64,000 nucleotides of DNA from a virus, in IMG/VR virus record IMGVR_UViG_3300044633_000899, positions 87,306-151,305 of that record; one strand, 5' to 3'. This document shows, in pieces, positions 7,240 to 61,827 of this stretch (within the stretch, counting starts at the first letter, position 1; the number at the start of each line of letters is the position of its first letter). The notes under the pieces were generated by a model. It made no database searches, was not told where the DNA came from, and saw nothing but the letters and a program-made list of their open reading frames with translations. The position numbers were made by a program, and so were the translations under genes.

Positions 7240-7755
7240 ATGAATATACAAAAATCCATAAGAAAAATATTACGGGAATATTTAGAAGAAGCAAGATTAT
7301 CTGACCTTTTACGTGTTACTGGTAATAAAAATGAATTACACAAACAGATTGAGAAAGAGATTTCAAAAGAATTTGAAATAGATAGAGAACTCCCAACACA
7401 ATTAACATTAAAAAAAAGGTATAATAATAAAAAAATAAAAGTATATTTTAATTATTATGATAATTTAAAACATAATTTAAAACAAAGAATTAAAGAAAGA
7501 ACAAGTTTCAAAAGTATTTCAGAGTTTGCCGAAATTATTACCGATGTTGTTAATTATGTTTTACCAGATGAACTTGGTGATAATATTAATCAAAATGGTA
7601 AATACGCGGTTAAGTTAATGGAAAGACAACTGACTATTATATTTTCTGTTAATTTAAACAACATCAAAGATAATCAAATACAGATTAATATCATCACAGT
7701 TTTATCAAAAACACAAATAGAAGAAAAAGATATAATACATTCTTTTATATATTAA
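7240..7755 (+). CDS. MNLQ-leader protein, 171 aa
   Basis: The N-terminus MNIQKSIRKILREYLEEA belongs to the shared leader type MNLQ..IRK.LREE, ending in the [IL]-x-E pattern. The body (residues 20-171) is a charged, probably mixed alpha/beta protein with no recognised domain. An ATATTTAT box lies at about 7227-7235. By comparison with T4 internal proteins, the leader may direct packing into the prohead and be removed; this is inference. Confidence 0.7.
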   Translation: MNIQKSIRKILREYLEEARLSDLLRVTGNKNELHKQIEKEISKEFEIDRELPTQLTLKKRYNNKKIKVYFNYYDNLKHNLKQRIKERTSFKSISEFAEIITDVVNYVLPDELGDNINQNGKYAVKLMERQLTIIFSVNLNNIKDNQIQINIITVLSKTQIEEKDIIHSFIY

Positions 7756-7778
7756 AATAGTAGTAACGAATTAATAAT

Positions 7779-8033
7779 ATGGTATTTAAAAACGAAGAGA
7801 AAGCAAAACAACTAATTGTGGAAATTGTATCAAGTGAATATGTAGACATTATTCCTGGTAAAGGGTTACATTTCAACGATGATATTGTTTATGATAAAAA
7901 CTTTTCACACATAACAAATGATGATGAATATTCATTAATTGAGGAAAAACTTAAATCAATTGTTAAGTTAATTAATGACGATCCAAATTTGGTACATAAA
8001 GATTTGGAAGACGAACTTTGGTATATGGTTTAA
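7779..8033 (+). CDS. Hypothetical protein, 84 aa
   Basis: Small acidic protein with no recognised family. Directly after its stop another frame stays open for about 30 more residues (to about 8137), so the gene could once have been longer and been cut by a frameshift. Confidence 0.55.
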   Translation: MVFKNEEKAKQLIVEIVSSEYVDIIPGKGLHFNDDIVYDKNFSHITNDDEYSLIEEKLKSIVKLINDDPNLVHKDLEDELWYMV

Positions 8034-8192
8034 TATTAAAAAAGACACGAAAAAGATTTGAGATAATTCATATACCAAATGGTTTAAGTACACTTGAATT
8101 AATAGAAAATCGTGATGACTGGGTAAATATAATAAAATAATCAATTTAGAAATAAGTTGAGGATTTTTATATTTGATATATATTTATATTAT
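8034..8192 (+). other. Intergenic stretch with possible frameshifted gene tail and duplicated leader
   Basis: Bases 8034-8137 can be read in a +1 frame relative to the preceding gene as ...FEIIHIPNGLSTLELIEN... up to a TAA, with no start codon. Bases 8145-8192 (TTAGAAATAAGTTGAGG, then ATTTTTAT, then an ATATTTAT box) are nearly repeated at 9748-9795 before the next MNLQ gene. Confidence 0.45.
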
Positions 8193-9743
8193 ATGAACCT
8201 ACAACAAACCATAAGAAAAATATTAAGAGAAGAATTTAAATCACATAATAACTTACAAGAAACTGTAAGAAAAGTATTAAGAGAAAAACTTAGACAAGAG
8301 AAAGTCGTGTTAAACGAACAGAAAATAAGTTTACCAATTATATTAAGAGATAGTTATACAGCACCAAAAGGTGATGGGGATGCTTTACACTCGTTTGAAA
8401 GACGTAAAAGTGATGGTTTTGGAGGAAAAATGACAACAAAGATTGATCAAAAATTAAAAGAGGTTTATGACTCGGGTATTAATCCAGATCTTGTTAGTTT
8501 AAAAATTGTTGTAGATTCATCACAATATAAAGTTACTTGGGAAGCAATAATTGATGAGAGTAAAGACGGTAAAGCATATATGGGTTCATCAACAAGAGGA
8601 TCCGCTGGTGGTGGTGCCGACAGAAGAGCCTTAGGTCAATTAGATAAATTAAAAAGACAACTCAGCAGAAATGGCGCTGAGGATATAACAGAAGTGTTAG
8701 ACTTTGTTAATCCAACAGGTGTCTATATTAGACAATATTTTTTTAAATATACATTACCAAAAAAATACCCACCATATACAACAAGTGGTGACTATGATAG
8801 AACCCAAAAACCTTCAATTATCAATTTAAGTCTTGATGACCCAAGTAGTCAAACTGAGTTGGCATCTAACACACAGTATTCTGTGTGTGTTGGTGACACA
8901 TACAAAAAAGGATGTAAAGATATTGGAACTAAGTATAATCGTCCAAATTATGACGGTATTATTTATAAAGTACAAGGTTGTATTGGGACAATTCAAGATG
9001 GGTTTTTTGGTAAAAAAACGGAAAAGAGTTTAAAAGAGAAATTTGGAAAAAGTGAATTTAAATTGTCGGATGTTGATACAATATGTAAAGATTCGGAAAC
9101 AGACAACATTAGTGGTTCACAAACTAATTTTAAAACTATCACTAAATTTATTATAGATAATTTTGAAGGTGGTTACTGGAATCCTTTTTGCAAACACCCA
9201 ACGAGTAGTATGGGAAAATCAACAGAAACAATGTTTGGTTTGGATAGGTATAATGGAAATATTGAAAGTAAACCTGATGGTAAAAAGTTTTTTGAAATTA
9301 TAGATAACGCAAAAACCGATGCGGGGGCAACATCTTCAGGAAGTGGAAAAAATATGACTTGGTCAAATATGTCAAAATTTTGTAAAACGTGGAAATGGTT
9401 ATATCGAGGTGGTGACAAAGAAGATGAACTTAAAGATTTAGCGGTAAACATTATGAAAACCGCTTACGACAGAAATATGTCAAATTATGTTAAATCTGAT
9501 AAAACAAGGGAAAAAATTGAAACAATTCCAGCGTTAACATTACATATGTCTTACGCTAGTTGGAACGGTCCTGGTTATTTTCAGACATTTGCAAAAGATT
9601 TAACAAACGCCGTTAATCAAGGTAAGTCCGATAAAGAATTAATTGATGTGGCACTTAAATCACGAACTGACGATCGTAGAATGAATAAACCAAAAGTTTT
9701 AGCTGCAATCTCAAAATTAAAAAATTCAAGTAATATTAGTTAA
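8193..9743 (+). CDS. Lysozyme-like virion protein with doubled MNLQ leader, 516 aa
   Basis: ATG 8193 is the start, as it sits behind the ATATTTAT box and opens the leader MNLQQTIRKILREE. A second copy (NLQETVRKVLREK) follows at once at residues 20-32, and then VVLNEQ at 39-43. Residues 252-298 resemble a peptidoglycan-binding unit (GTIQDGFFGKKTEKSLKEKFG). Residues 315-516 resemble phage lysozyme or transglycosylase domains, with a candidate catalytic Glu in DNFEGGYWNP (about E325) and a conserved LHMSYASWNGPGYFQ near 450-465. The likely role is peptidoglycan cleavage, either at entry if packaged or at lysis. The leader favours packaging. The exact glycosidase family is uncertain. Confidence 0.75.
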   Translation: MNLQQTIRKILREEFKSHNNLQETVRKVLREKLRQEKVVLNEQKISLPIILRDSYTAPKGDGDALHSFERRKSDGFGGKMTTKIDQKLKEVYDSGINPDLVSLKIVVDSSQYKVTWEAIIDESKDGKAYMGSSTRGSAGGGADRRALGQLDKLKRQLSRNGAEDITEVLDFVNPTGVYIRQYFFKYTLPKKYPPYTTSGDYDRTQKPSIINLSLDDPSSQTELASNTQYSVCVGDTYKKGCKDIGTKYNRPNYDGIIYKVQGCIGTIQDGFFGKKTEKSLKEKFGKSEFKLSDVDTICKDSETDNISGSQTNFKTITKFIIDNFEGGYWNPFCKHPTSSMGKSTETMFGLDRYNGNIESKPDGKKFFEIIDNAKTDAGATSSGSGKNMTWSNMSKFCKTWKWLYRGGDKEDELKDLAVNIMKTAYDRNMSNYVKSDKTREKIETIPALTLHMSYASWNGPGYFQTFAKDLTNAVNQGKSDKELIDVALKSRTDDRRMNKPKVLAAISKLKNSSNIS

Positions 9744-9795: not shown

Positions 9796-10113
9796 ATGAA
9801 CCTACAAGAACAAATATCAAGAATCCAGTCAATGATGGGGGTTAACGAATCATTTTTTGATTGGTTTAAATCGTCAGAAGAAAAACCAACTCAATCAGAA
9901 GAAAGATTTACCTGTGAAGATTGTGGTGAACAAAACTACAATATGTATATGGTTAATGATGATTTATGGGATAAATATGGTAATGAAAAAATGACTTTAT
10001 GTAAAAGTTGTTTGGAACAAAGAATGGGTAGAGAATTAACCAAAGATGATATCTCACAACATAAAGACGCATTGACAAATATTCATAATCCAGAATTAAA
10101 AAACTTTTACTGA
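9796..10113 (+). CDS. Leader-bearing zinc-ribbon protein, 105 aa
   Basis: Begins MNLQEQISRIQSMMGVNES, a variant leader that matches the internal segment EEINRIKEMMGIVLNEQ of the 30525 protein. The mature part has CEDCGEQN and CKSCLEQR, a four-cysteine zinc ribbon. An ATATTTAT box and the same 45-bp leader as at 8145 lie upstream. It is followed after 2 bp by the next MNLQ gene. Function unknown. Confidence 0.75.
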   Translation: MNLQEQISRIQSMMGVNESFFDWFKSSEEKPTQSEERFTCEDCGEQNYNMYMVNDDLWDKYGNEKMTLCKSCLEQRMGRELTKDDISQHKDALTNIHNPELKNFY

Positions 10114-10115
10114 TT

Positions 10116-11408
10116 ATGAACTTACAAGAGCACATACGAAAAGTATTAAAGGAAATTAGAGTACCAAGAGAAGAAAGGGTACAGTTATATAAGGACGATA
10201 ATATTATCGTTGTAGTTCCGTTAACACATAGAGCCTTACAGAAATATGCCCACAGATGTCAGTGGTGTATTAATGATGATAAGGATGAGTGGGAAGATTA
10301 CCATAAAGGATTACACGCGGTTATTATTCAAAGAAACCCCAAAAAAATAAAGATAGGGATCACAGGAAATCCAGTACCAACAGAAATTTTTATTATGGAT
10401 AGATGGGATGAAGGTGGTTACCGCTTTAAAGACGTTTGTGACATATTAAACCATAATTTCAAAGATGAGGTTGATATGAAAGATTATTATACGACAATAT
10501 TAAACGACATTAATAATTTTGGAACCAATATAGTTTATTATTCCCCTAGTAATGAGTTATATGATCAAGAAGATAATTATTTAGGTGGTTTTAATTATAA
10601 AATATCAGACATACCAAATGTCACACCAGAAGTAATTAAGATTATGGATGAATATTTAACAAAAGAAGAGTTTGAAAGACCGGACGCACCAAAAAGAAAT
10701 CAACAAGAACTTGATGAATACGCAAGAACATTAAAAAACGCAAGACAACAAGGTGTTGGATTAAGATTCCCAAAATCGGCAATAAAATCAAATCCATCAA
10801 GATTTAGACCATATAATAGAAAAGGTGTTAATGAGTCAGACCTTGAAACAAAACAGAATGATAAAAGGATTGTTTGTGAGAAATGCGGATGGTCGTGGGA
10901 TTTATCTGAAGGTGGTGATGATCCATATACGTGTCATAAGTGTGGAAACGAAAACCATAAATCTGAGTTAACGGAAAAGTGTTGGAAAGGTTACACCCAG
11001 AAAGGAATGAAAACAATGTTTGGTAAAAAATACCCTAATTGTGTTAAAAATAAAAAATCCAAAACGAACCTACAAGAATCCATAAGAAGAATAATACGGG
11101 AAGAAACCAAACTTAACCCAATGATTCTACGTAGAGTCCGACGCGATGATTTAGAAAGAGAATTTGAGGAGTCTTTAGACGATACATCAAATAGTGTATT
11201 TCATTTAATTAGAAATGGTGGGGGTATTATGGTTTTAGATAGATTTAAATATATTACGGTGTCAAGATTAATAGATGGAATCCATTATGAAATATATAGT
11301 ACAACACCAGAAGATTCAGAATGGTATGATGAAGTGTTTAATAGTTTAAAAGATTATTATACAGATAGAATTGAGGTTAGATATAAAAAATTAATGTCAG
11401 AAATATAA
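10116..11408 (+). CDS. Polyprotein-like MNLQ protein with WCI, zinc-ribbon and second leader, 430 aa
   Basis: Residues 1-13 are the leader MNLQEHIRKVLKE. A WC-motif domain follows (CQWCI at 48-52, similar in pattern to the 473 protein). Around residues 255-282 lies a zinc ribbon (CEKCGWSW...CHKCGNEN), followed by the conserved phage motif CWKGYTQKGMKTMFG and PNC. At residue 317 a complete second leader, TNLQESIRRIIREE, opens a further 100-residue domain that also has ILRR. The internal leader suggests the product is cut into at least two proteins, or that two genes fused. I find no frameshift or internal stop. Confidence 0.75.
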   Translation: MNLQEHIRKVLKEIRVPREERVQLYKDDNIIVVVPLTHRALQKYAHRCQWCINDDKDEWEDYHKGLHAVIIQRNPKKIKIGITGNPVPTEIFIMDRWDEGGYRFKDVCDILNHNFKDEVDMKDYYTTILNDINNFGTNIVYYSPSNELYDQEDNYLGGFNYKISDIPNVTPEVIKIMDEYLTKEEFERPDAPKRNQQELDEYARTLKNARQQGVGLRFPKSAIKSNPSRFRPYNRKGVNESDLETKQNDKRIVCEKCGWSWDLSEGGDDPYTCHKCGNENHKSELTEKCWKGYTQKGMKTMFGKKYPNCVKNKKSKTNLQESIRRIIREETKLNPMILRRVRRDDLEREFEESLDDTSNSVFHLIRNGGGIMVLDRFKYITVSRLIDGIHYEIYSTTPEDSEWYDEVFNSLKDYYTDRIEVRYKKLMSEI

Positions 11409-12637: not shown

Positions 12638-13090
12638 ATGAATCTACAAGAATCCATAAGAAGAATATTACGGGAAGAAACAACACTCCAAAGTAGAGTA
12701 AACGAGTTGATTAACACAAAAGGGGTTGTTCTTGCATCAACAATGGTTGGTGGACTTGACACACTATCAAAGATATTAAACTTAGATTTAAATGATGTGG
12801 ACACACAAGAAAAATTAGTTAAAAACTTTATTAATTTTTATGATCTTAAAGAAGAAAGTATTATTATAGATTCTTTAGAAGTTAGGACAACGGTAAATAG
12901 GGGAAAGGTTATCAAAGTAAATGGAACGGTTAATGACGATTGGGAGAATTTTAGTTCGTGGTACGTTCTCCACATTTGTGGTGAGATGGAGAGATTTTTC
13001 CCATTTAACACTCAACCTTATGATCACTCTGTTTTTACCAATAGTGGTGTTAAAATATTCATAGAATCGGAATTTTTATACGAAGAATAG
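12638..13090 (+). CDS. MNLQ leader plus VGG-domain protein, 150 aa
   Basis: ATG 12638 overlaps the TGA of the preceding gene region and opens MNLQESIRRILREE. The mature part carries ASTMVGGLDTLSKIL near residues 32-46, placing it in the VGGxxNLxKI paralog family also found at 13119 (C-terminal), 19857, 24386, 29509 and 56847. Those relatives have quite different leaders, so leader and body move independently. Function unknown. Confidence 0.75.
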   Translation: MNLQESIRRILREETTLQSRVNELINTKGVVLASTMVGGLDTLSKILNLDLNDVDTQEKLVKNFINFYDLKEESIIIDSLEVRTTVNRGKVIKVNGTVNDDWENFSSWYVLHICGEMERFFPFNTQPYDHSVFTNSGVKIFIESEFLYEE

Positions 13091-13118: not shown

Positions 13119-14642
13119 ATGAACTTACAAAAATCCACAAGAATAATAAAAGAAGAATCTAAATTACCCATTAATATTTTGAGGAGGTTAGATTTATCGG
13201 TTGGATTATTTGATAGGATGAAAAAAGCGGCATTAATTAAATCAATTGATGGACCATTTAACGTTCATAATGTTGCAAGATATGCCGCGGAAGAAATTAT
13301 ACCTTGGCATGATGAGGATGGTAATGATTATGAGGATTTTGGTATTTGGGTTTACGATTTTAAAGATTTTTTAATTAACAAATATGGAGAACAGACCAAA
13401 GAATATATAAACAAAGTATATCCTCAAGGTGGTTTTAAGAGTGATGGTTATGATTATATTTTCTTGAAACATTCCGATATAAATGGTGGAAGTGGATTTA
13501 GTGAGAGTTATAATACTTGGGGTAATTTACTTTTAGGTCGTGGATGGCGGTTTCCATTGGATTGGTGGGAGATCAAAGCCGATTTGGATAAGATGGACGA
13601 GGGAAAAAAAATAATATTAAAACCAAACGACAAACATAATACTTATGGATATTATTTCTCAATTATAAAAAAGAATTCAAATGTACAAGAGACCATCAAA
13701 AAAACATTAAGGGAAGAACTGGAATCAAAATGGAATATAGGAAACAAACACGGAAACAAATATAATTATCAACACGGGTTTTGTCATTACTTTGCATATA
13801 ATATTATTGGTAAATTAAAAAAATTATATCCAGATAGAAATATTAGATATTACTTAATACTGGCCGATGAGGTTTATGATTTTGACGAGGGGGAAGTGGA
13901 GCAATCATATCTTGTTCACGCTTATATAAAGATTGATGATTTATATTTAGATTCAAATGGGTTTGCAACAGAAGAAGAAATAAAACAGAGAACCCAGGGT
14001 TGGTATGATAGACAATTAAACCAATTACCAGAAGATTATAGGATAGATATTTGGCACGATGAATATAATAAAATACCAAAATATTATTTTAATAACCAAT
14101 TCTGTAATGTAGGTACAATAAAAAAAGATGTAGAAAAATTCTTATCACATCCAGAGGTAAAAGAACTATTACAAATTATTGATAATAATCAACAGATAAA
14201 GGAGGGGTTACCAAACCGAACCAAAGAATTAATTTTAGATAAGATTAGGACAATGGGGTTTGACGATGCTGCAAGTATAGTTGGTGGAAAAGATAACCTT
14301 TCAAAAATAACTGGGATAAATACGTATGAAGAATATCTTAACTTGTTTAATGATCTTACTATTTCAACCAGTCAAGAAAAACCATATATAACATTATATA
14401 AGAATAACAAAGGTATAAATGTTTTCGTTAAGTATTATGAGGCTAAATCCAAAATGTCTTATATTTTTATTAATCACAACATACTTCAAAAACCACTTAG
14501 TGAATATAACATACAAAAAAGTAGAGTATTAAGAAAATGGTTAAAAAATACTTATGATATAGAAGTTAAAAATACGGATTTTTTACAAGCATACTACCCA
14601 GGTGAAGAAAATGCTGGGGGTTATTTAGAATATTTAACATAA
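13119..14642 (+). CDS. Polyprotein-like MNLQ protein with RR, Cys-His and VGG modules, 507 aa
   Basis: Residues 1-13 are an MNLQ-type leader (MNLQKSTRIIKEE) followed by ILRRLDLSVG, the RR-family motif. A second leader-like segment, NVQETIKKTLREE, lies at 188-200. Residues 201-350 contain HGFCHYFAYNIIGKL and LVHAYIKIDDLYLDSNG, whose Cys...His...Asp order could be a papain-like fold (inference). At 359-363 comes QIKEG, and residues 366-507 are a full VGG-domain (AASIVGGKDNLSKITGI). This is three modules separated by leader-type or [IL]-x-E sequences, as expected for a precursor cut by a prohead protease. An ATATTTAT box lies at about 13107-13114. Confidence 0.75.
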   Translation: MNLQKSTRIIKEESKLPINILRRLDLSVGLFDRMKKAALIKSIDGPFNVHNVARYAAEEIIPWHDEDGNDYEDFGIWVYDFKDFLINKYGEQTKEYINKVYPQGGFKSDGYDYIFLKHSDINGGSGFSESYNTWGNLLLGRGWRFPLDWWEIKADLDKMDEGKKIILKPNDKHNTYGYYFSIIKKNSNVQETIKKTLREELESKWNIGNKHGNKYNYQHGFCHYFAYNIIGKLKKLYPDRNIRYYLILADEVYDFDEGEVEQSYLVHAYIKIDDLYLDSNGFATEEEIKQRTQGWYDRQLNQLPEDYRIDIWHDEYNKIPKYYFNNQFCNVGTIKKDVEKFLSHPEVKELLQIIDNNQQIKEGLPNRTKELILDKIRTMGFDDAASIVGGKDNLSKITGINTYEEYLNLFNDLTISTSQEKPYITLYKNNKGINVFVKYYEAKSKMSYIFINHNILQKPLSEYNIQKSRVLRKWLKNTYDIEVKNTDFLQAYYPGEENAGGYLEYLT

Positions 14643-19856: not shown

Positions 19857-20255
19857 ATGAAAATTATTATTACTGAAGACCAACATAACAAATTAAAAGA
19901 TAATTTAATGAAACTTATTAATCGTTCCGAATTTAGTGTTGGGGTTAAAGCGGTTGGTGGTTTAAAGAACTTGATTAAAATTTTATATGATGGTGATTAT
20001 AATTCATTTGTTAAATATGTGTCTGATGATTTAATTTACAACACACATAAAGTTAGACATCATTATTTTTTATTTGATTGTAACATCTCTATCTTTTTAG
20101 ATCATTCAGAGAGATATAACCCTGTTTTTAGTTTTAGACCTAGTTGTTTTAATAGTGTTATGCGGGAGAAATATGGTGTGGACGATAAATATATTTCTTC
20201 CATATGGAAACAATATTCAAACTATGTTATTAATAGGTATTTAAAAGAGAATTAA
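19857..20255 (+). CDS. MKIIITE-leader VGG-domain protein, 132 aa
   Basis: ATG 19857 follows a CATATATTTATT box and opens MKIIITEDQHNKLKDNLMK, the third leader type. The body has SVGVKAVGGLKNLIKILYDGDYNSFVKYV, the VGGxxNLxKI paralog signature, shared with 12638, 13119, 24386, 29509 and 56847. The longer frame starting at 19800 contains the promoter and is rejected. Confidence 0.75.
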   Translation: MKIIITEDQHNKLKDNLMKLINRSEFSVGVKAVGGLKNLIKILYDGDYNSFVKYVSDDLIYNTHKVRHHYFLFDCNISIFLDHSERYNPVFSFRPSCFNSVMREKYGVDDKYISSIWKQYSNYVINRYLKEN

Positions 20256-22945: not shown

Positions 22946-23323
22946 ATGAAAAAAGTAATAAGATTAACAGAATCTGATTTAACAAGAATTGTTAAACGAG
23001 TAATTAAAGAAAATAGATTGACCTCTCCACCGAATGAAAATGTCCGAAAATTAATGTCATTACTTACCAAGAATAACTTAATTGATCTTGAATATGTTAA
23101 TGTGTATCAAGATTATATTGAGGTTTATAAAATAATTGGTTGCGACTCAGGTTATTTTATGGACAACTTTATTCGTCTTCATCCGGAAGATATTGATAAT
23201 GATGTTGTTTATGTTGATGGTGAACATTATGGGGAAGAAATTGATGAAGAGGAGTATGAGGAGGTTTTGGAATATATTATAGAAAATTGGGAACCATTAC
23301 TAAATCTTGAGTTTGTTGAGTAA
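22946..23323 (+). CDS. LTESDL-leader protein, 125 aa
   Basis: Starts MKKVIRLTESDLTRIVKR followed by VIKE and then Asn, the most conserved leader type. The body is acidic (ends EEEYEEVLEYIIENWEPLLN) and has no known domain. A GATATATTTATT box lies upstream. With 23437, 23807, 25355, 27589, 29941 and 57377 it shares only the first 22 or so residues, in codons as well as amino acids. Confidence 0.75.
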   Translation: MKKVIRLTESDLTRIVKRVIKENRLTSPPNENVRKLMSLLTKNNLIDLEYVNVYQDYIEVYKIIGCDSGYFMDNFIRLHPEDIDNDVVYVDGEHYGEEIDEEEYEEVLEYIIENWEPLLNLEFVE

Positions 23324-23436: not shown

Positions 23437-23691
23437 ATGAAAAGAATAATTAGACTAACAGAATCCGATTTAACTAGGATTATTAAAAGAACCATTATAG
23501 AGATGGAGGAAGATGACGACGAAGTTATTGTAAATGTTAACGACATCGCAAAAGAAGACATGGCCTGTTTTAATGATGTTGCAACACCTTCAGGAATGAA
23601 CGGAGGAAAATATAAGAGAAAAAAGAAAGGTTGTCAAACTAAAACAAGATATAAAAGTAAAACAAAATATTACGGAAACAATAGATTCTAA
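23437..23691 (+). CDS. LTESDL-leader small basic-tailed protein, 84 aa
   Basis: The leader MKRIIRLTESDLTRIIKR runs into an acidic stretch (EMEEDDDEVIVNVND) and then a strongly basic Gly/Lys/Arg/Tyr tail (GGKYKRKKKGCQTKTRYKSK). The basic tail would suit DNA binding inside a packed head; this is inference. A TATATATTTATATAT box precedes it. Confidence 0.75.
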   Translation: MKRIIRLTESDLTRIIKRTIIEMEEDDDEVIVNVNDIAKEDMACFNDVATPSGMNGGKYKRKKKGCQTKTRYKSKTKYYGNNRF

Positions 23692-23806: not shown

Positions 23807-24196
23807 ATGAAAAAAATTGTAAAACTAACCGAATCAGATTTAACAAGAATTGTTAAACGAGTACTTAAAGAGGAAGTTACCGAGACCAATATTCTTCACT
23901 GGGAGTTACCAAAAAAATTAGTTAAAGAGCTTGAGGATAGAGTACCAGATGGACTGAAATTATATAGGGATAATGATATTGTTTATGTTCAGGAACTTTG
24001 GTTTGATACAAGAAAAATTATTTTTGCTCTTTACACACAAGAGCAATTTGGTGTTGAGATAAATTATGATGACTCATTTGATGTTCCGTCAGGTTATAAT
24101 GGGTATTATAGTGTTGATTTTGATAGTGTATCAAAAGACCTCAAAATTTTTATTTTAAGGAGATTAGAACATAACTATATTAGATATTTATTATAA
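23807..24196 (+). CDS. LTESDL-leader protein, 129 aa
   Basis: ATG 23807, behind GATATTTATT, opens MKKIVKLTESDLTRIVKR and VLKEE. The body is unrecognised, beta-rich then helical (LKIFILRRLEHNYIRYLL at the end). It is followed after 1 bp by a MKIIITE-type gene, so leader types mix within one operon. Confidence 0.75.
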   Translation: MKKIVKLTESDLTRIVKRVLKEEVTETNILHWELPKKLVKELEDRVPDGLKLYRDNDIVYVQELWFDTRKIIFALYTQEQFGVEINYDDSFDVPSGYNGYYSVDFDSVSKDLKIFILRRLEHNYIRYLL

Positions 24197-24197: not shown

Positions 24198-24389
24198 ATG
24201 AAAATCATTATAACGGAACAACAATACAAATACATATCAGAAATGATTAAACTTGACATTAAAGTTGGGGATGTGATTATGGGTGGTAAATTTAAAAACA
24301 AAAAGATTGTTGTTAAAACCATTGGTAAAAATGATAAGGGGGATATTACAATTAATGGTAAACCACTATTAAGATTTAGACTATTATGA
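24198..24389 (+). CDS. MKIIITE-leader small protein, 63 aa
   Basis: Leader MKIIITEQQYKYISEM, then a small basic beta-rich part (VGDVIMGGKFKNKKIVVK). That pattern resembles a short SH3-like strand set. Its stop overlaps the next ATG. Confidence 0.7.
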   Translation: MKIIITEQQYKYISEMIKLDIKVGDVIMGGKFKNKKIVVKTIGKNDKGDITINGKPLLRFRLL

Positions 24390-24856
24390 AAAAAATTATT
24401 ATTACAGAAGAACAAAAGGAAACCTTGGTTGATAAATTATTATATATGATTGACCTTCACGGTTTTGATGTTGCGGTATCCACCGTTGGGTCGGTTAAAA
24501 ACTTGGTTAAAGTGATTGGTAAAGATAATTTTGAAACCGTTTTAATTGACCGTAAATTTGATCCAAATGAAATTAAACTGGTAACATCAACTTATGATGT
24601 TCCGGATACTTTCACTAGATTTGGTGGTGTTGACCGTAATAAATTACTTAGGTTTCTCAATAGGTTTGGTCCAATGTATCTACTCACTATTGGTGATGAT
24701 AGTGTCTTATACCAAAACCAAGATGATACCGAATATTTCACAACAGCATTTGGGTTTTCACCAATGGAACGAACCCTTGACAGAGTTGGGTTAACCAAAC
24801 TGAAAATTAAAGATGTTATAACCATATTTGACGATAAAATTGATGAACAATATTAA
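24386..24856 (+). CDS. MKKIIITE-leader VGG-domain protein, 156 aa
   Basis: Leader MKKIIITEEQKETLVDKL, body with HGFDVAVSTVGSVKNLVKVIG (about 26-46). It belongs to the VGGxxNLxKI family, with the second Gly changed to Ser. ATGA overlap with the preceding gene. Confidence 0.75.
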   Translation: MKKIIITEEQKETLVDKLLYMIDLHGFDVAVSTVGSVKNLVKVIGKDNFETVLIDRKFDPNEIKLVTSTYDVPDTFTRFGGVDRNKLLRFLNRFGPMYLLTIGDDSVLYQNQDDTEYFTTAFGFSPMERTLDRVGLTKLKIKDVITIFDDKIDEQY

Positions 24857-24921: not shown

Positions 24922-25287
24922 ATGAAATTTATTATATCAGAATCTCAATATGAAAGATTATTTGGTGAACTTCCACTTTCTCTTAAAAGAAGGATAACTC
25001 GGAGTGACCTAGAATTTTTGGATGGTGAGTTGGTCTATTATATTGCAAATACCCGGCCTATGAATAAATTTGAAGACTTCTTAGAACATGTCATCAATAA
25101 CCTTCTATATGAATTTATTATGAATATTAAAAGTGATGAGATTGATGTTGATGAGGATGATGAATACATTGAGACCAGCCGAGATAAAGTTATGGGTGTA
25201 TATTGGCAAATAAAACCATTTCTTGAAAAAAGATATAATGATTGGATACATAGGGCTTGGGAAAAAAAGAAAAGTCTATTTTTATAA
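24922..25287 (+). CDS. MKFIISE-leader protein, 121 aa
   Basis: Leader MKFIISESQYERLFGE of the MKIIITE type. The body is acidic in the middle (DEIDVDEDDEYIE) and ends in an amphipathic basic helix. Unknown function. A CATATATTTATTT box precedes the start. Confidence 0.7.
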   Translation: MKFIISESQYERLFGELPLSLKRRITRSDLEFLDGELVYYIANTRPMNKFEDFLEHVINNLLYEFIMNIKSDEIDVDEDDEYIETSRDKVMGVYWQIKPFLEKRYNDWIHRAWEKKKSLFL

Positions 25288-25354: not shown

Positions 25355-27136
25355 ATGAAAAAAATAATTAGATTAACAGAATTGGATTTGGTATCAACGA
25401 TAAATAAAATTATCACTGAACATAAATTTATTACTGAAATAGGTGATTTACAATCACCATATGAAAAATTAATGACTTGCAAATTCACATCTGATGGTAA
25501 ACATGTTGTTTATGAAGGTAAAGCATACTCAACAATAAATGGGAACGAAGTCTTAATTAATGAAAATTGGAGTTTGAGTGATATATTACATACTGGTGCG
25601 GATCTTTTATCTGCTGGTATGGATTTTGTAATCCCAGGTTCTGGTGCTGTTATTGATGTTTTAAATGCACTTAGTTATATTATTGAAGCACAATTTAAAT
25701 CTGAAAAAGAAAGAGATTCACTATATATTATGGCGGCAATAACATTCGCTTTTGTTATATTGCCTGGACCATTACAAGCAATTGCAATACCACTTAAACG
25801 AGCAGTTAAGACTGGTGTTGGTTTGGCGTCAAAAATTGTTGTTAAGGGTTTAAAAATTGTTGGTGGAATTTTGGATACAATATTACTTAAATTACCAAGT
25901 AAAATAAAATCTGCATTACAATCAACTTTGGCAAAAAAGATTCTCGGTAGATTTAGAGGTAAAATTACTGGATTTATTGATAAGTTTACATCAAGGATTA
26001 AACAAATATTATCAACAATTACAGGTAAAACCGGTAAGAAGGGTGTTGAAAATTCAGTAAATGTTAGTTCCGATCAATTTAAAAAAATGTTTGATATTGA
26101 TAGAACTCTTGGTAAATATGGTTTCAAGGAAACTCCTGAAACAATAAACGCAACATTAAAAAATGTTAACTTTACCAAAGATGGAATAAAAGTTGTTAAT
26201 AAAACAACACACAGTCAAGGTCAAGAAGCGTTTTCGGCGGTATTACCTAATAATGTGAGAATGATATTTTATAATAGTAGTAAAGGCTGGATTCCAATAA
26301 AAGGATATAATGGAAAAAAAGCAATACAAATGACAGATATAGACTCAAAGTATGTTAAAGATTTAATATCGGTTTTGAACCGTGAGGGACTGAGTGGGTT
26401 AGGTAAACAAGTTGGTAAACAAGTTGGTAAAAATACCATTACTCCTGTTGCGATACAAGCAGCAAAAAACTTTTTTAGTAGAATACCAAAAATTTCACAA
26501 GGAGCAAAAGTTTTAAGAAAAGCGGGCTTTGCTAAAGGTTATACGTATAAATATATGGGTCCTAAAGGTCCTTTAAAGGGAACAATTTCGGAAATAACGG
26601 ACAGTGGCGTTAAGATATTATTTGAGAAAAACGGTAGGAAATTCACAACAATGGTTCCTGTTGAAACCTTCATTAATAAGGCTGTGGGTGCACCTTGGTT
26701 GAGAAGAGGGTGGGGAGTAACAGTTCCGTTGTTTGTTAAAAGATTTAGTGATATGTTATTAGCTGACGGATCAAATATTGATTATAATAAGTTAGATTCT
26801 ATTCCAGATTTAGATCCCAAACAAACATCATCAGAAACAGAAACTTTTTTACAAGGTGAAGTTGCGGAGTATGAAGGTGAAAGTGATTACACAGTAAATA
26901 CAAACGTCCAAAATATCCAAAACGCATTACTAGCATTAGGATATCAATTACCTAATGCAGGTGCTGATGGTAAATTTGGTCCAGAAACAAAAACTGCTTT
27001 AGAGAAATTCCAAAAGGATAATGGTTTAACAACATCCGTAGGAAAAATGGATAGATTAACAACTAAAAAATTGGCGGAAAAATTAAAGGGTAAAAACCTT
27101 GAACCCGATTTACAAAATAATTTAAACAAAATGTAA
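25355..27136 (+). CDS. LTESDL-leader internal-virion-like protein with peptidoglycan-binding domain, 593 aa
   Basis: ATG 25355 opens MKKIIRLTELDLVSTINK ending IITE. A glycine/hydrophobic region follows (about 70-180, including DFVIPGSGAVIDVLNALSYI and MAAITFAFVILPGPLQAIAI), long enough to span membranes. The middle is basic. Near the C-terminus (about 525-580) is a PG_binding_1-like repeat: VQNIQNALLALGYQLPNAGA, FGPETKTALEKFQKDNG. A packaged protein with both membrane-active and cell-wall-binding parts suits a DNA-ejection role like the inner proteins of N4, T7 or phiKZ; this is inference from architecture. The start at 25304 is rejected because it reads through the promoter. Confidence 0.75.
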   Translation: MKKIIRLTELDLVSTINKIITEHKFITEIGDLQSPYEKLMTCKFTSDGKHVVYEGKAYSTINGNEVLINENWSLSDILHTGADLLSAGMDFVIPGSGAVIDVLNALSYIIEAQFKSEKERDSLYIMAAITFAFVILPGPLQAIAIPLKRAVKTGVGLASKIVVKGLKIVGGILDTILLKLPSKIKSALQSTLAKKILGRFRGKITGFIDKFTSRIKQILSTITGKTGKKGVENSVNVSSDQFKKMFDIDRTLGKYGFKETPETINATLKNVNFTKDGIKVVNKTTHSQGQEAFSAVLPNNVRMIFYNSSKGWIPIKGYNGKKAIQMTDIDSKYVKDLISVLNREGLSGLGKQVGKQVGKNTITPVAIQAAKNFFSRIPKISQGAKVLRKAGFAKGYTYKYMGPKGPLKGTISEITDSGVKILFEKNGRKFTTMVPVETFINKAVGAPWLRRGWGVTVPLFVKRFSDMLLADGSNIDYNKLDSIPDLDPKQTSSETETFLQGEVAEYEGESDYTVNTNVQNIQNALLALGYQLPNAGADGKFGPETKTALEKFQKDNGLTTSVGKMDRLTTKKLAEKLKGKNLEPDLQNNLNKM

Positions 27137-41752: not shown

Positions 41753-41986
41753 ATGTATAGCGTTGACGAATTAATCGGTTTTATGGAAAAATTCACATTT
41801 AAATCAAATAACAGTGAATTAGGAGAACAAGACGACGCAGCACCATCTGGTGGTGAGGGTGGTTATCCTACTGTTACAAAATGGGAAACAGGTTTAACTA
41901 GAGGTTTAGCAAATACTATCGATGATAAAGTAACTTGGAAATCGTTATATACGACCGCAAGAGGTAAAGGGAATACATTAATATGA
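41753..41986 (+). CDS. Small virion-type protein, 77 aa
   Basis: MYSVDELIGFMEKFTFKS start, then a Gly/Pro-rich stretch and a Thr/Trp part (GYPTVTKWETGLTRGLANTI). It opens the operon of large internal-virion-like proteins behind an AATATTTATAAATA box and overlaps the next gene by ATGA. Confidence 0.65.
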   Translation: MYSVDELIGFMEKFTFKSNNSELGEQDDAAPSGGEGGYPTVTKWETGLTRGLANTIDDKVTWKSLYTTARGKGNTLI

Positions 41987-43236: not shown

Positions 43237-44403
43237 ATGGAAAAGAAATTAATACTAGAAGATATCCAAAGAATTATGTTGTTATCAAATTACAATATGG
43301 ATATGACGTTATCTGAAAATACAACGATATTAGAACAAAGAACACTTTATAGTGATGTCCTTAAAGCCTTTAGTAAAGATGGTGCAGTTGTTAAAGAATT
43401 AACGTTATTAATGAAGGACGCGAAGTTTATGAACGAACTTAAAGGTGGTAAACTTTTTGATAAAGCAGGTAAAGAACTACGAACATTTCAAGATGTGGTT
43501 GGTGCTGCTAAAAGAGGTACAATTACCGAAAAAGAGTTAGCTAGATTTAATTGGGCGGTATTCAAATCAACGCCGAATAAAGCGATAAGAATTGAGTTGG
43601 CTAAAGATATTGTTAAAAGTGATTCATTTATTAGTAAATATGGTAAAATGACACCAACAGAGGCTAAAAATGAACTATTGAAACAAGGGCTTGATAAGAA
43701 GGACGCACAAAGATTGGCAACAGCGTATCGTGATTCTAAATCAAATACTACGCGTGTCCAACAAACGTTAGATGACTTGGCGAGTGCTGATGAGATATTA
43801 AAATTGAAAGAAGTGGAAGCCGCAAAAAAAGTGAAAGAAGCGGAAATTTTAGGACAAGATATTAAAATCGCTGAAAATAAAAAATTAGTTGATGAACGTA
43901 AATTAGAACTAGCAAAAATAAAAGATTCATCACCAAGTACTGTTAAATTATTTCTTAAAACAAATGGTGTTGTACGATTTGTCAAAAATTTAGGAAAATG
44001 GGTAATTGGTAATAAATGGTTTTGGATTTTAGGTGGTGGTACATTAGCGGGTTATTGGTTGTGGAGAAACTGGGCTAAAGTACAAGGTTATGTTGAAGAT
44101 TTACTTGATCCGTGGGATGAAACTAGTGAAGACGATGATGATACTGAAACACCTAGAGTGCCTGGTGGTGGTAAAGATGAAATAAAACCTATCGTCTATA
44201 AAAATTGTTCACCAAATGGACCATTCAAAAAAGGATGTAAAGATTATCTTGGTGGTGATAAAGAAATTACAGCATTACAACAAGTATTAGGATTACCAAC
44301 GACTGGTGAATTTGATACAACATTAGAGAACGAAGTTGTTGCAAGATATGGTAGCGACACATTAACTCGTGATGAACTTGATAGTATTTCAGGTATTGTA
44401 TAA
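43237..44403 (+). CDS. Internal-virion-like protein with membrane helix and peptidoglycan-binding-like end, 388 aa
   Basis: Starts MEKKLILEDIQRIMLLSNYN, with TILEQ near residue 38 as a possible cleavage site. Residues 180-235 are a charged coiled coil (KLKEVEAAKKVKEAEILGQD). A single membrane helix with Trp (WFWILGGGTLAGYWLWRNW) lies at about 266-284. The C-terminal 70 residues (CSPNGPFKKGCKDYLGGD, LQQVLGLPTTGEFDTTLEN) resemble the KKGCKD/PG-binding part of the 8193 lysozyme-like protein. Likely to act at the envelope during entry; inference. Confidence 0.7.
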   Translation: MEKKLILEDIQRIMLLSNYNMDMTLSENTTILEQRTLYSDVLKAFSKDGAVVKELTLLMKDAKFMNELKGGKLFDKAGKELRTFQDVVGAAKRGTITEKELARFNWAVFKSTPNKAIRIELAKDIVKSDSFISKYGKMTPTEAKNELLKQGLDKKDAQRLATAYRDSKSNTTRVQQTLDDLASADEILKLKEVEAAKKVKEAEILGQDIKIAENKKLVDERKLELAKIKDSSPSTVKLFLKTNGVVRFVKNLGKWVIGNKWFWILGGGTLAGYWLWRNWAKVQGYVEDLLDPWDETSEDDDDTETPRVPGGGKDEIKPIVYKNCSPNGPFKKGCKDYLGGDKEITALQQVLGLPTTGEFDTTLENEVVARYGSDTLTRDELDSISGIV

Positions 44404-44419: not shown

Positions 44420-45505
44420 ATGAAAAATATAGATTTAAACATAAAAAGAATGTTATCACTACTTGAATCAAAGATGGGTGATGTTAAACCATTAATCAAT
44501 GAACAATTTGATCCTACAAGTTTATTACCGAAAAAAGATTGGATATCAACTAAAAGTACTGAAGATTGGTTGAAGTGGATTAAAGATAAAGGTTGTATAA
44601 CCAGTAGACCTGGTGGTGCAGAATCAAAAATTGAAATAACCACAACCACAACTAAAAAATTACCAGGTACTAATTCTAATGAACCATTTATTAAAGTTAC
44701 GAAGTTTAAACCGATAAATAAACGCGGCCAAGAGGTGATGTATAATTTATATATTCTTGGAAAAAAGAGTCTTGAAGGTAAAGAAGGTTACTTTAAATTG
44801 TTTTACCAAAGGGAAGGTGATAAAGCCAATCAATACCTTGAGGGTCAATTAGATTGTAGTGTACAATACAACCCTGAAACAACAAGTGTTGCTAGTGAAG
44901 TTAGTAATGTAAATACTGAAGACGAAGTTAATCAATTCTTAAAAACAAATGGTTACACTCGTCAACTAGAACCTGGTGATAATGATCAACAACGTTCACA
45001 AACAACAGTTAAAAAACTTTGTAATGAAACACCAGGGTTGTGTTCAGGTATATTAAAACAATATGCTGACGGATCACAAGGTAATAAACCGATATATCCT
45101 ATGACAAATAAACAAAGGGATGAGGCGGTAAAATCTGGGTATATTAAAGATGTTGATCGTGTGAAAGAAAGACAAACTGCTTTTAACATAAAACGAGGTA
45201 TTAAAAAAATTAATAAAGAAAATTTTACTAACCAATCTTGTAAAACAGCGATAATAACGCTGGATCAATGTAATACAAAGGAAGAGTCTTGTGGTGATGT
45301 TGTGAAAATAAACCCAAGACTACAAAATATGGGACCAAACGAAGCAAGATTGTGGTTATCAAACCATATTAAATTATGTAGAAAAAATAATATGTACAAT
45401 AAAAAACAACTTGCAGACGTAAACGATCTTCAACTTGAGCAAACAATAGGAAAAAACATTAGAGAAAGTTTAAAAGAACTTAATTTAATAAATAAGATAG
45501 GTTGA
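44420..45505 (+). CDS. LLESxxGDVKP-leader protein, 361 aa
   Basis: The first 30 residues, with IKRMLSLLESKMGDVKPLI ending NEQ, match the start of the 61066 protein (FNRLLESELGNVKPIVEA), a further leader type. The body is Cys-containing and basic with CSVQYNPETTSVASEV and a C-terminal LWLSNHIKLCRKNN. No domain recognised. It ends a four-gene operon of probable internal virion proteins and is followed by a strong terminator. Confidence 0.7.
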   Translation: MKNIDLNIKRMLSLLESKMGDVKPLINEQFDPTSLLPKKDWISTKSTEDWLKWIKDKGCITSRPGGAESKIEITTTTTKKLPGTNSNEPFIKVTKFKPINKRGQEVMYNLYILGKKSLEGKEGYFKLFYQREGDKANQYLEGQLDCSVQYNPETTSVASEVSNVNTEDEVNQFLKTNGYTRQLEPGDNDQQRSQTTVKKLCNETPGLCSGILKQYADGSQGNKPIYPMTNKQRDEAVKSGYIKDVDRVKERQTAFNIKRGIKKINKENFTNQSCKTAIITLDQCNTKEESCGDVVKINPRLQNMGPNEARLWLSNHIKLCRKNNMYNKKQLADVNDLQLEQTIGKNIRESLKELNLINKIG

Positions 45506-51880: not shown

Positions 51881-52387
51881 TTATTTTAATGAATCTGCCG
51901 CTGTTCTGATTTGTTTTGACATCATCGTATTGATACCATTCAATTCAGCCCTATCTGTTGTACTAATCCCAAATTTTGACGGGTCAGCGTTGACAACACT
52001 ATCTGTTTTAAAAGGTTGACCTGGACGATAAACTAAGTTATCCACAGATGGTGTGTTTATAAATTCAACACTGTAATATGTACCATTTTTATCACTAAGT
52101 TTTGTAATAACCGCCTTAACATCAGTATCGATTGAACTCATACCTACACTAGTACCATTTTTAGCAATAATAAACTCTTTTTTGATGGCCTGTTGTGATG
52201 GTACCGCTGGTGGTTGTGTTGTTTGTGTAGTCGTTGTCGGTGCCGCCGCCGCTGGAGCAGGAGTTGCTGGTGCAGGTGCTGGTGCCGCAGGAGTTGCTTG
52301 TTCACCTAAAAATTCTCTAGCAATCGCACTTTTGTGCATACCAAGTATTCTTGATTTTTCTTCTTCTGTTATTAAAAATTTTTTCAT
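51881..52387 (-). CDS. MKKFLITE-leader protein with Ala/Pro linker, 168 aa
   Basis: Leader MKKFLITEEEKSRILGMHKS followed by FLGEQ (about 27-31), a probable cleavage point. A long Ala/Pro/Thr linker (32-65) leads to a C-terminal domain with KKEFIIAKNGTSVGMSSIDT. Linkers of this kind are usual in virion proteins. TATTTATAA lies before the start on the minus strand. Confidence 0.75.
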   Translation of the reverse strand: MKKFLITEEEKSRILGMHKSAIAREFLGEQATPAAPAPAPATPAPAAAAPTTTTQTTQPPAVPSQQAIKKEFIIAKNGTSVGMSSIDTDVKAVITKLSDKNGTYYSVEFINTPSVDNLVYRPGQPFKTDSVVNADPSKFGISTTDRAELNGINTMMSKQIRTAADSLK

Positions 52388-56846: not shown

Positions 56847-57329
56847 ATGAAACGAATAATAAAGATTGATGAAAAGCAATTAAATAACATCGTAAAACGT
56901 GTTATAACAGAAGAAACTAATCGTGAGAAAATAGTTAACAAATTAGTTAGTCATATAAAATCTGGTAACTGGGAATTAGCAGCGTCAATTGTCGGTGGTG
57001 TTAAAAATTTAGTAAAAATTGTTTTTGATGGTAATTATGAAAATTATCTGAAACTATTTGATAATTTAAAAATGACCGAAGCCGAAAATTTAGATTCAAC
57101 CTATTTTATTGTTAACGAAGATGGTAAAACACTTATGCAGTACCAAAGTCGTTTAGGAGATCTTTATGTTGATGACGTTACATTTTATGACTTTTTTGTT
57201 GAGAACGATCTTGATGATTACGACATTACTAATCTGATCAGAAATTGGGTTAAGAAAAAGTTTGGTATTAATCACGTAGCAATTGATTTTACAGACTATT
57301 TTTCGGAAGATTATGATAATGACAATTAA
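56847..57329 (+). CDS. LTESDL-type leader plus VGG-domain protein, 160 aa
   Basis: Leader MKRIIKIDEKQLNNIVKR with VITEE, body WELAASIVGGVKNLVKIVFD (about 42-61) and NYENYLKLFDNLK. It is the clearest VGG-family member and has a different leader from 12638 (MNLQ) and 19857 (MKIIITE). ACTATTTATAA box before the start. Confidence 0.75.
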   Translation: MKRIIKIDEKQLNNIVKRVITEETNREKIVNKLVSHIKSGNWELAASIVGGVKNLVKIVFDGNYENYLKLFDNLKMTEAENLDSTYFIVNEDGKTLMQYQSRLGDLYVDDVTFYDFFVENDLDDYDITNLIRNWVKKKFGINHVAIDFTDYFSEDYDNDN

Positions 57330-57376: not shown

Positions 57377-57790
57377 ATGAAAAAAATAATAAGATTAACA
57401 GAATCAGATCTTACAAGAATTGTAAGACGCGTGATTAAAGAACAACAATCTGGTGGATACACTCAAAATGCAAAAACAGCAATTAAATTAATTGAGGATG
57501 GTATTGCGTATATAGGTGGTACAGATGAAAAGATGATCGCTAAAGGTGTTTACACAATAAAAACTAAAGAAGACTACCAGCACGTTTTAAAACACGCTAA
57601 GGCTAAAGGATTTAAAAGTGTTATGGCTTGGATTAATACTGATTGGGAGAACGTTGCTTCAGAAACGGATTTTGGGATTAATAGTGGTAATAGTAGTTTA
57701 ATTATTGATGTTGAACGACATTTAAAACAATTTAATCCATCAGAAGAAGGCTCAAAGGCTAGATTTATGGGATCATCAAATAATTATTAA
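57377..57790 (+). CDS. LTESDL-leader protein, 137 aa
   Basis: Leader MKKIIRLTESDLTRIVRR with VIKEQQ. The body has IKLIEDGIAYIGGTDEKMIA and KSVMAWINTDWENVAS, unrecognised. CATATATTTATTG box upstream. Confidence 0.75.
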   Translation: MKKIIRLTESDLTRIVRRVIKEQQSGGYTQNAKTAIKLIEDGIAYIGGTDEKMIAKGVYTIKTKEDYQHVLKHAKAKGFKSVMAWINTDWENVASETDFGINSGNSSLIIDVERHLKQFNPSEEGSKARFMGSSNNY

Positions 57791-60213: not shown

Positions 60214-60229
60214 TTCAAAATATATTTCC

Positions 60230-60237
60230 TATATTTG
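60230..60237 (+). promoter_or_regulatory. Host-type -7 box abutting peptidase start
   Basis: TATATTTG three bases before the ATG at 60241; gives an almost leaderless mRNA. Confidence 0.65.
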
Positions 60238-60240
60238 CAT

Positions 60241-61026
60241 ATGGAAAGAAATTTTGAATTATTAAAAGACGTGTTATCAGTACCCACAAAAACATATAAT
60301 GAGGGATTGATGATTGATTTTATCACAAATTGGTTAACAGAAAACGAATTACCTTTTTATGTTGATCAAATGGGTAATATTTACACCACAAAACAAACTG
60401 ACGAAAACATTAACTACTTCCCTTGTGTTATTGCACATACGGACACTGTACATAACATAGATACAATCAACGTTATGGAAGAGATGTTACCAAACGCTCA
60501 AGGTGAGATTAAACTGTCGTTAAAAGCGTATAATAACAATGGTAACCCAACTGGAATTGGTGGTGATGATAAGTGTGGTGTTTATGGTTGTTTAGAACTC
60601 TTAAAAGAATTACCAAACGTTAAAGCAGCATTTTTTGTATCAGAAGAAACTGGTTGTAAGGGTTCGTCTAATGCGGATCCCCAATTTTTTGGTGATGTTG
60701 GTTATGTTATCCAATTTGATGCTCCAGAGAATAATATGATTTCTGAATATTTGATGGGAAAACCAATGTTTAATCGTGATTCAGAATTTTTTAATATTGG
60801 TGGTCGTTTATTATCTGAACATTTTCCTGCTGATACCCAATACCATAAACATCCATATACCGACATTTTCCCTTTAAATCAAAATTTTGGTTTATCTTGC
60901 TTCAACATCTCAATTGGGTATTATAATTACCACACAAGAAACGAATATGTTGTTGTGGATGATACTTACAATGGTATTAAGGTTGGTAAATTGATGATTG
61001 AGGAATTGGGTTATAATAAATATTAA
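60241..61026 (+). CDS. M20/PepT-like metallopeptidase, 262 aa
   Basis: Metal-ligand order of the M20 clan: AHTDTVH (His66, Asp68), GIGGDDKCGVYGCLELLK (Asp109/110), FVSEETGCKGS (Glu135/136), and a C-terminal His in GYYNYHTRNEYV. PepT-like tripeptidases share TGIGGDDKxG. It lacks the long dimerisation domain and is shorter than PepT (about 410). ATG 60241 is chosen, right behind the -7 box. A cytoplasmic aminopeptidase role, perhaps finishing peptides released by Clp or host proteases, is inference. Confidence 0.85.
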   Translation: MERNFELLKDVLSVPTKTYNEGLMIDFITNWLTENELPFYVDQMGNIYTTKQTDENINYFPCVIAHTDTVHNIDTINVMEEMLPNAQGEIKLSLKAYNNNGNPTGIGGDDKCGVYGCLELLKELPNVKAAFFVSEETGCKGSSNADPQFFGDVGYVIQFDAPENNMISEYLMGKPMFNRDSEFFNIGGRLLSEHFPADTQYHKHPYTDIFPLNQNFGLSCFNISIGYYNYHTRNEYVVVDDTYNGIKVGKLMIEELGYNKY

Positions 61027-61065
61027 TTTTTTTATACTTTAAAGTATTTATTATAAAATATAAAT

Positions 61066-61827
61066 ATGAAAAATATTAACGTTTATAAACAAAAATTTAA
61101 TAGATTATTAGAATCAGAATTGGGAAATGTTAAACCAATAGTTGAGGCTTTAGGTGGTGGTAGTGGCGATATGGATTCAATTACTTGGTTAAAAACAAGA
61201 TACCCTAATGGTATTCCTATGACAATACCAATAAAATCAAGTGGGAAAAACACATTCTCAAATGGTATTGACAAGATTAATCCTAACGACCCAAAAATAA
61301 AAGAAATTTCCGAATTAATTAAGAATTTATTAGCAACAAATACTGGTAAAATTGATGTAACGGTAAATGGTGGTGCGTCAGCTGTGGGTAAATCGGATAA
61401 CTATGACAACATAGCGTTGGCAACACGAAGACGAGATAATCTAATTAACTATCTTAGACAAACTTTTAATAGTAAAAGTTTAAATCTTATACCAGGTACT
61501 GTTAAAGAAGGTCAAGAAACAACTAAAAATAGCGATGCTGCTATGAAAGAACAATATGTTTCTGTTGAGGTTTCAGTACCACAAAAATTAAACTTACAAA
61601 TAAAAGGTGAGGTTGGTGACAACACAACCAGAGATAGAACAATATATCCGAAAAATAGCGGTGGTGGTGGAATTGATCCAGATCCTCTTGACCCAACCGT
61701 AAAATACGATTTAAAGATTTGTGTTACAATACCTAAAGGTCTTGAATCTCAATATGTCAAATTAATACGTCAATTTAAAAATCAATATGATTTAGTTAAA
61801 ATGGGTATTTCTAAAAAAACAATTTAA
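61066..61827 (+). CDS. LLESxxGNVKP-leader protein with OmpA-like domain, 253 aa
   Basis: The start (MKNINVYKQKFNRLLESELG, then NVKPIVEA) matches the leader of 44420. Residues about 95-165 include KIDVTVNGGASAVGKSDNYD and LATRRRDNLINYLRQTF, the OmpA C-terminal peptidoglycan-binding order (G.a...G....N..La..Ra.....L). A Gly linker and KICVTIPKGLESQYVKLIRQ follow. Probably a packaged cell-wall-binding protein. An AGTATTTATTATA box precedes it. Confidence 0.75.
   Translation: MKNINVYKQKFNRLLESELGNVKPIVEALGGGSGDMDSITWLKTRYPNGIPMTIPIKSSGKNTFSNGIDKINPNDPKIKEISELIKNLLATNTGKIDVTVNGGASAVGKSDNYDNIALATRRRDNLINYLRQTFNSKSLNLIPGTVKEGQETTKNSDAAMKEQYVSVEVSVPQKLNLQIKGEVGDNTTRDRTIYPKNSGGGGIDPDPLDPTVKYDLKICVTIPKGLESQYVKLIRQFKNQYDLVKMGISKKTI

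Follow-up and report, generated by a model that had tools for sequence, protein, structure and literature searches.

Interchangeable N-terminal leaders ending in glutamate as candidate capsid-targeting sequences on about 15% of genes in a T4-like jumbo phage

The window, a stretch of 64,000 nucleotides corresponding to positions 87306–151305 of a 296,330-bp virus record, was described in a sequence-only reading as encoding about 30 proteins with unrelated bodies that begin with one of a few short peptides ending in glutamate. Are these peptides capsid-targeting leaders, as that reading proposed, or do they have another role or origin? By its sequence, the record is that of a T4-like tailed jumbo phage, the capsid protein of which has its nearest relatives in uncultured phages, a Microcystis phage and the cultured Flavobacterium phage immuto; the host is likely a member of the Bacteroidota. 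Capsid-targeting sequences (CTSs) of T4 are N-terminal propeptides of ~10–20 residues that are cut after the Glu of L/I-X-E by gp21, the same S77 protease that cuts the capsid protein (PMC9026906, PMC5694885, PMC9958956). The T4 motif had been given in the sequence-only reading as (L/I)-x-x-E-like and is corrected here to L/I-X-E (PMC9026906).

All N-termini listed initially were found, and the sharing is larger than was first stated (Table 1). Of the 360 ORFs in the whole genome that are 60 aa or longer, at least 56 have a shared or leader-like N-terminus, a few of them weak (e.g., 43237 and 30525); 30 are in the window, including the additional qualifying genes 30525, 37001, 41753, 41983 and 43237, and the search of the rest of the genome yielded further leader genes, as had been anticipated. 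The genes listed at 28391, 36403, 39891 and 51881 do carry leaders, but these positions are not gene starts: they are the 3′ ends of minus-strand genes with start codons at 29155, 36933, 40514 and 52387, respectively. Two assignments to the MNLQ class were revised, the leader of 13119 being degenerate (MNLQKSTRIIKEE) and that of 9796 (MNLQEQISRIQSMMGVNES) belonging to another class, RIxxMMG. Four leader classes, including the class MNLxExIxRIxxMMG added here, recur on ~450 distinct proteins in public viral contigs; the LLESxxGDVKP class consists of two proteins.

Table 1 Leader genes of the window and head genes of the phage. Coordinates are those of the window unless preceded by "genome"; a slash marks the predicted cleavage position.
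Feature	Coordinates	Strand	Details
Leader gene	7240–7755	+	MNIQKSIRKILRE/Y, 171 aa
Leader gene	8193–9743	+	MNLQQTIRKILRE/E, 516 aa; no family match
Leader gene, RIxxMMG class	9796–10113	+	MNLQEQISRIQSMMGVNE/S, 105 aa
Leader gene	10116–11408	+	MNLQEHIRKVLKE/I, 430 aa; several different leaders on body relatives
Leader gene	12638–13090	+	MNLQESIRRILRE/E, VGGL/VGSL body family
Leader gene	13119–14642	+	degenerate MNLQKSTRIIKE/E, 507 aa
Leader gene, MKIIITE class	19857–20255	+	VGGL body; no clear second site
Leader gene	22946–23323	+	MKKVIRLTESDLTRIVKRVIKE/N
Leader gene	23437–23691	+	MKRIIRLTESDLTRIIKRTIIE/M
Leader gene	23807–24196	+	MKKIVKLTESDLTRIVKRVLKE/E
Leader gene	24198–24389	+	MKIIITEQQYKYISE/M; near-identical copy in L315
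Leader gene	24386–24856	+	MKKIIITEEQ on VGSV body; no clear second site
Leader gene	24922–25287	+	MKFIISESQYERLFGE/L; MNLQ leader on same body in L186
Leader gene	25355–27136	+	MKKIIRLTELDLVSTINKIITE/H, 593 aa, peptidoglycan-binding domain (endolysin-like)
Leader gene	27589–27819	+	MKRIIKLTESDVTRIVNKIITE/S
Leader gene	28391–29155	-	MKKYLITEDQMTRIMLKE/S, 254 aa
Leader gene	29509–29934	+	MKIIITENQYNIIKE/N, VGSL-like body
Leader gene	29941–30483	+	MKKTIKLTESELKTVITKIIE/Q
Probable leader gene (weak)	30525–31796	+	MDLKKLLLSE/G, 423 aa, weak PG_binding_3 match
Leader gene	36403–36933	-	MKKYRLNESDINRIIGKVLSE/Q, 176 aa
Leader gene	37001–37615	+	MRILENIIKRVIKE/E, 204 aa
Leader gene	39891–40514	-	MKIIITESQYKKILLE/N, 207 aa
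Leader gene with own leader	41753–41986	+	MYSVDELIGFMEKFTFKSNNSELGE/QDD
Leader-like gene	41983–43233	+	RILEMHK type, 416 aa
Leader-like gene	43237–44403	+	MEKKLILEDIQRIMLLSNYNMD..., 388 aa; weakest class
Leader gene	44420–45505	+	LLESxxGDVKPLINE/Q, 361 aa
Leader gene	51881–52387	-	RILGMHK type, ...AREFLGE/Q, 168 aa; same leader at genome 279388
Leader gene	56847–57329	+	MKRIIKIDEKQLNNIVKRVITE/E, VGGV body
Leader gene	57377–57790	+	MKKIIRLTESDLTRIVRRVIKE/Q; leader protein-identical to genome 280211
Leader gene	61066–61827	+	LLESELGNVKPIVE/A, 253 aa
Conserved head-module protein	genome 157237		423 aa; immediately upstream of terminase gene
Terminase large subunit	genome 158586		
Portal-like protein	genome 162873		intein-like insert; by inspection and gene order
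Head maturation protease	genome 167773–168498		
Scaffold-like acidic protein	genome 168922		
gp23-type capsid protein	genome 170515		

The N-termini resemble one another far more than other parts of the proteins do. When 22-residue segments were compared across the whole genome (ungapped BLOSUM62 score of at least 45), 195 protein pairs were obtained with N-terminal segments, compared with 24 for internal, 21 for C-terminal and 0 for shuffled N-terminal segments; 44 proteins have an N-terminal partner without having an internal one. The bodies are mostly unrelated: the leader proteins of this genome and of public contigs, 381 in all, are spread over 188 body clusters, and simple paralogy was rejected as the cause of leader sharing on this ground. 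Signal peptides were likewise rejected, the apparent ones (e.g., 17490-, 33394 and 51395) being hydrophobic and lacking the Glu site. A tblastn search of 50,697 phage records with the LTESDL leader gave no match, none of these records carrying the class closely.

To avoid circularity in locating the end of the leaders, public viral contigs were scanned with DNA patterns that fixed the leader start only, and the downstream sequence was then read. In the LTESDL class (residues 1–12 fixed), Glu is at position 22 in 129 of 134 proteins and I, L or V at P3 in 133; the information content is 4.03 bits at E22, 1.36 at the next residue and less than 0.85 beyond, and several of the five exceptions have the motif about three residues later. 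The MNLQ class has E13 in 86 of 92 proteins, three of the remainder resembling chance hits. In the RIxxMMG class, [ILVM]-x-E is found at residues 15–21 in 117/124 proteins compared with 7/124 farther downstream, and in the MKII class [ILVMF]-x-E is found at residues 12–20 in 92/101, whereas 500 shuffles gave 40 on average and 56 at most. Each class also has an extra L/I-x-E at its start (LTE, ITE and LQE), and additional cleavage sites occur in giant phage propeptides (PMC5694885). A second L/I-x-E is not clear in three proteins of the MKIIITE type (19857 and 24386 of the window and 50379 of the genome), although their IITE would itself suit the motif. Such short motifs are common (1.4 L/I-x-E per 100 aa genome-wide), so single sites mean little alone.

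The Glu is also the point at which leaders are exchanged. Nine body clusters among the 381 leader proteins mix leader classes. For instance, the LTESDL-led L127 (...VINE/NQEEVDRILDK) and the MKII-led L325 (...FLIE/NQEVVDRILDK) have bodies that align directly past the Glu, and the junction of window protein 41753 reads ...ELGE/QDDAAP here but MKIIISE...NIDE/QDATAG or ...QLDE/QGN in its relatives. One body family in this genome occurs with MKII, LTESDL-like and MNLQ leaders, and two of its paralogues have no leader. By these comparisons (the exchange at Glu, the leaderless paralogues and the head-module protein described below), leader and cargo are separable modules. A body-anchored search gave 63 distinct N-termini; [ILVMF]-x-E lies close to a possible start in 60 of them, and most have recognisable leaders of several classes. 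Because this loose motif is present in 105 of 294 non-leader genes, for which starts were chosen differently, we regard the search as supporting, not decisive.

Several features of the bodies were recorded alongside. A short Cys-rich module, CEKCGWSW...PYxCHKCGHDN, is present on many leader proteins (body-anchored matches L459–L538; window 10116–11408). A family of about ten paralogues with the VGSLDKTFEIF body exists with and without leader (genome 239200–242671, 78977, 166712, 283644, 49880 and 77055), and its AlphaFold model, with a mean pLDDT of 89.5, gave no significant match in the PDB. For the commonest cargo family, AlphaFold predicts a leader helix that passes into the body without a break; a Foldseek search of the PDB with this family gave no match below E 0.001.

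The check set beforehand, a search of the genome for a prohead protease, did not refute the proposal: a gp21-family enzyme with both catalytic residues was found (Peptidase_S77, E = 5e-23; PHROG head maturation protease, 7e-43; T4 gp21 structure 5jbl, 4.5e-13). In the alignment with 5jbl, the ELNHP and SSRG motifs are intact, and His and Ser occupy positions that read Ala in the crystallised T4 gp21; we take these Ala residues to be engineered catalytic-site mutations. The protease is encoded in 20 of the 25 large leader-bearing contigs, and the remaining five are best read as fragments because they also lack the capsid gene. Since S77 proteases are general in T4-like phages, their co-occurrence with leaders is necessary but not distinctive.

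Candidate substrates of this protease are found in the head module itself. The capsid protein reads ENQASFLINE/ATGEG, where LINE/A is invariant in 80 relatives and is IVSE/A in immuto; compared by eye rather than by a tool alignment, this site is likely the equivalent of the T4 gp23 maturation cut. The alignment of the conserved head-module protein with 13 orthologues revealed one invariant N-terminal Glu (14/14), preceded by I/L/V-x in nearly all, within N-terminal extensions of ~10–43 aa that are otherwise unrelated. The conserved body, A-P-I-x-Y-x-G-P-E-R-M, starts one residue past this Glu, and the P3–P1′ residues match the capsid site. The AlphaFold model has a short helix followed by low confidence at residues 16–21, around E19/A20. 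In both alignment and model, this N-terminus appears as expected of a removable propeptide. A Foldseek search with the head-module protein found no match in the PDB and one uncharacterised phage protein in BFVD. The density of L/I-x-E in the scaffold-like head-module ORFs 154580, 165992 and 168922 is 2.5–5.0 per 100 aa, compared with the average of 1.4. The portal-like ORF (genome 162873–165968; L015:11674–14769) is 1031 aa long and contains an apparent intein with an endonuclease-like region.

Leader genes and head genes also have an upstream box in common. ATATTTAT is present within 60 bases upstream of 35 of 55 leader genes, 6 of 10 head genes and 31 of 289 other genes (Fisher p = 4e-16 for leader and 3.5e-4 for head genes, each versus other genes). 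The box lies on the sense strand, mostly 12–14 or 20–28 bases ahead of the start codon, and fits a putative late promoter common to both groups. The initial description of the box at nearly all leader genes was too strong, the counts being 19/30 in the window and 35/55 genome-wide, and about one third of leader genes lack it. The box often starts 12–14 bases before the start codon (e.g., 9796, 23807 and 24198); were it a -10-like element, this proximity would leave many transcripts with no or almost no 5′ untranslated leader.

Most leader-protein bodies match nothing. The recognisable cargo in related contigs includes ART-PolyVal (L234), phage lysozyme, ECF-like sigma factors (L294 and L278), a DHH-like domain and HExxH metallopeptidase-like proteins; peptidoglycan-binding proteins are also among the recognisable cargo. 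The sigma factors were detected by phmmer with E. coli RpoE, in agreement with a Pfam sigma-70 match, and regular expressions found none. In no leader protein were several effector domains seen in one chain, most having no domain match. Some RIxxMMG-class leader proteins (L155, L161 and L186) have P-loop kinase-like motifs (GPPTVGKST and DGTSSAGKS). Ten large leaderless genes that were checked include those for RNR, a DnaB-like helicase, IMPDH, DNA methylases and a ClpB-like ATPase; a phage-encoded ClpB/ClpA-like AAA protein of 606 aa is located at window 61847–63667, on the minus strand. T4 Alt is an ADP-ribosyltransferase that is packaged and injected (PMC5512222). To call the cargo "injected effectors" is to generalise, since most of it lacks a recognisable function.

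It is highly probable, in our view, that the leaders represent T4-type capsid-targeting sequences, cleavable and expanded to ~15% of genes. This interpretation, put forward in the sequence-only reading, draws support from the protease, the capsid site, the Glu boundary in several classes and the head-module protein. Also in its favour are the exchange of leaders at the Glu, the box in common with head genes and the effector-like domains of some cargo in related contigs, whereas RNR, the DnaB-like helicase, IMPDH and the DNA methylases have no leader. Points against it are the three MKIIITE-type proteins, the commonness of short L/I-x-E motifs, the leader genes that lack the box and the unbroken helix in the cargo model. 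Late in infection, each leader, as an amphipathic helix that is short and in most cases basic, would attach its cargo to the scaffold core of the prohead. The terminal [ILV]-x-E would next be cut after its Glu by the gp21-type protease, in the stage that also sees the capsid cut at LINE/A and the shredding of the scaffold; the freed cargo would remain in the head, to be ejected with the DNA and act in the next host. It is by analogy with T4 that we infer docking on the scaffold, cleavage, packaging into the virion and ejection.

The leaders might instead target proteins to the head for assembly, as core proteins, rather than for injection, the cargo being mainly scaffold-like. We think this unlikely: one leader is indeed carried by the conserved head-module protein, and the scaffold-like ORFs of that module are rich in L/I-x-E, but the cargo is hugely diverse and several of its members are enzymatic or regulatory, unlike a core assembly set. 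Alternatively, the leaders could be uncut docking helices for the tail, neck, membrane or an intracellular phage compartment, with the Glu merely a part of the helix. Such helices would leave unexplained the exchange of leaders exactly at Glu between homologous bodies, the invariant Glu and conserved Ala of the head-module protein and the P3–P1 match to the capsid maturation site, and we judge them very unlikely despite the basic, amphipathic character of the leaders and the helix that runs on into the body in one AlphaFold model.

The frequent occurrence of box and leader together would also suit duplication traces or a mobile 5′ cassette, comprising the promoter box and gene start, that was fused to genes by recombination and has no targeting function. 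The identity of synonymous codons among nine LTESDL leaders of this genome, somewhat above that expected from codon usage (0.654 versus 0.51), points the same way, two of the nine being near copies. At the DNA level, however, most leaders have drifted apart, whereas hundreds of contigs retain the peptide and, above all, its terminal Glu; a neutral element would neither keep the Glu nor end at a protease site, and we give this origin hardly any credence. Recombination may well be the route by which leaders spread, without explaining their retention. Capsid targeting explains the observations better than any rival tested.

Known systems share parts of this arrangement. T4 IPI, IPII, IPIII and processed Alt are similar in having a short N-terminal propeptide together with a homologous protease and capsid protein, although no homology of the peptides is claimed; T4 has a handful of tagged proteins and one leader class, whereas this phage has at least 56 such genes and several classes, and its leaders of ~13–22 aa, unlike those of T4, often contain an extra internal L/I-x-E (LTE, ITE or LQE). 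SPN3US and phiKZ likewise package many proteins with a jumbo genome, as predicted here, and their propeptides are removed after Glu by a gp21-like protease (PMC5694885), but at A-X-E in SPN3US and S-X-E in phiKZ rather than at an L/I-x-E-type motif. Eight head proteins of SPN3US were found to be cut, and three named propeptides comprise 124–127 residues, unlike the short leaders of this phage. Polyvalent proteins, which are predicted injected phage effectors (J Bacteriol 2017, PMC5512222), have the ART-PolyVal domain in common with the cargo but combine many domains per chain, in contrast to the single, mostly small proteins found here, each with a predicted cleavable leader. Freshwater Bacteroidetes bS21 phages are, in the available part of their description, large (up to 331 kb), with a single conserved module that groups TerL, portal, prohead protease and MCP, and that part makes no mention of N-terminal leaders (PMC9723584). 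We found no earlier description of such leaders in the open-access literature. The kind of system is known; to our knowledge, and within the literature searched, so many tagged genes, such a variety of leader classes and so free an exchange between them have not been described.

It appears fairly probable that T4-like jumbo phages of a large clade bear several interchangeable, sequence-readable packaging tags on ~15% of their genes and carry dozens of effectors per virion (ADP-ribosyltransferases, sigma factors, peptidases, lysins and many new families), with leader swapping recruiting new genes to the injected proteome. Phage proteins injected with the genome act ahead of phage gene expression, and few are known because they are found by virion proteomics, phage by phage. 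If the capsid-targeting reading is true, the sequence of uncultured jumbo phages would reveal their injected proteome, a place and time of action could be assigned to hundreds of small families as yet unknown, and chosen proteins could be loaded into large capsids by means of a natural, modular address tag. CTSs have been suggested to be the route by which T4-like phages recruit new head cargo (PMC9026906), a suggestion that the leaders, if true to appearance, render testable.

The cultured phage immuto (MW353175) has a leader of its own: two different proteins, at ~25061 and 111675, begin with one leader of ~24 residues, MKKQILSEQF[RK]RMQ[KF]LAGIITES, for which immuto itself was the sole tblastn match. 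Immuto also encodes a protein starting with MKKSQLRQIIKE/A.
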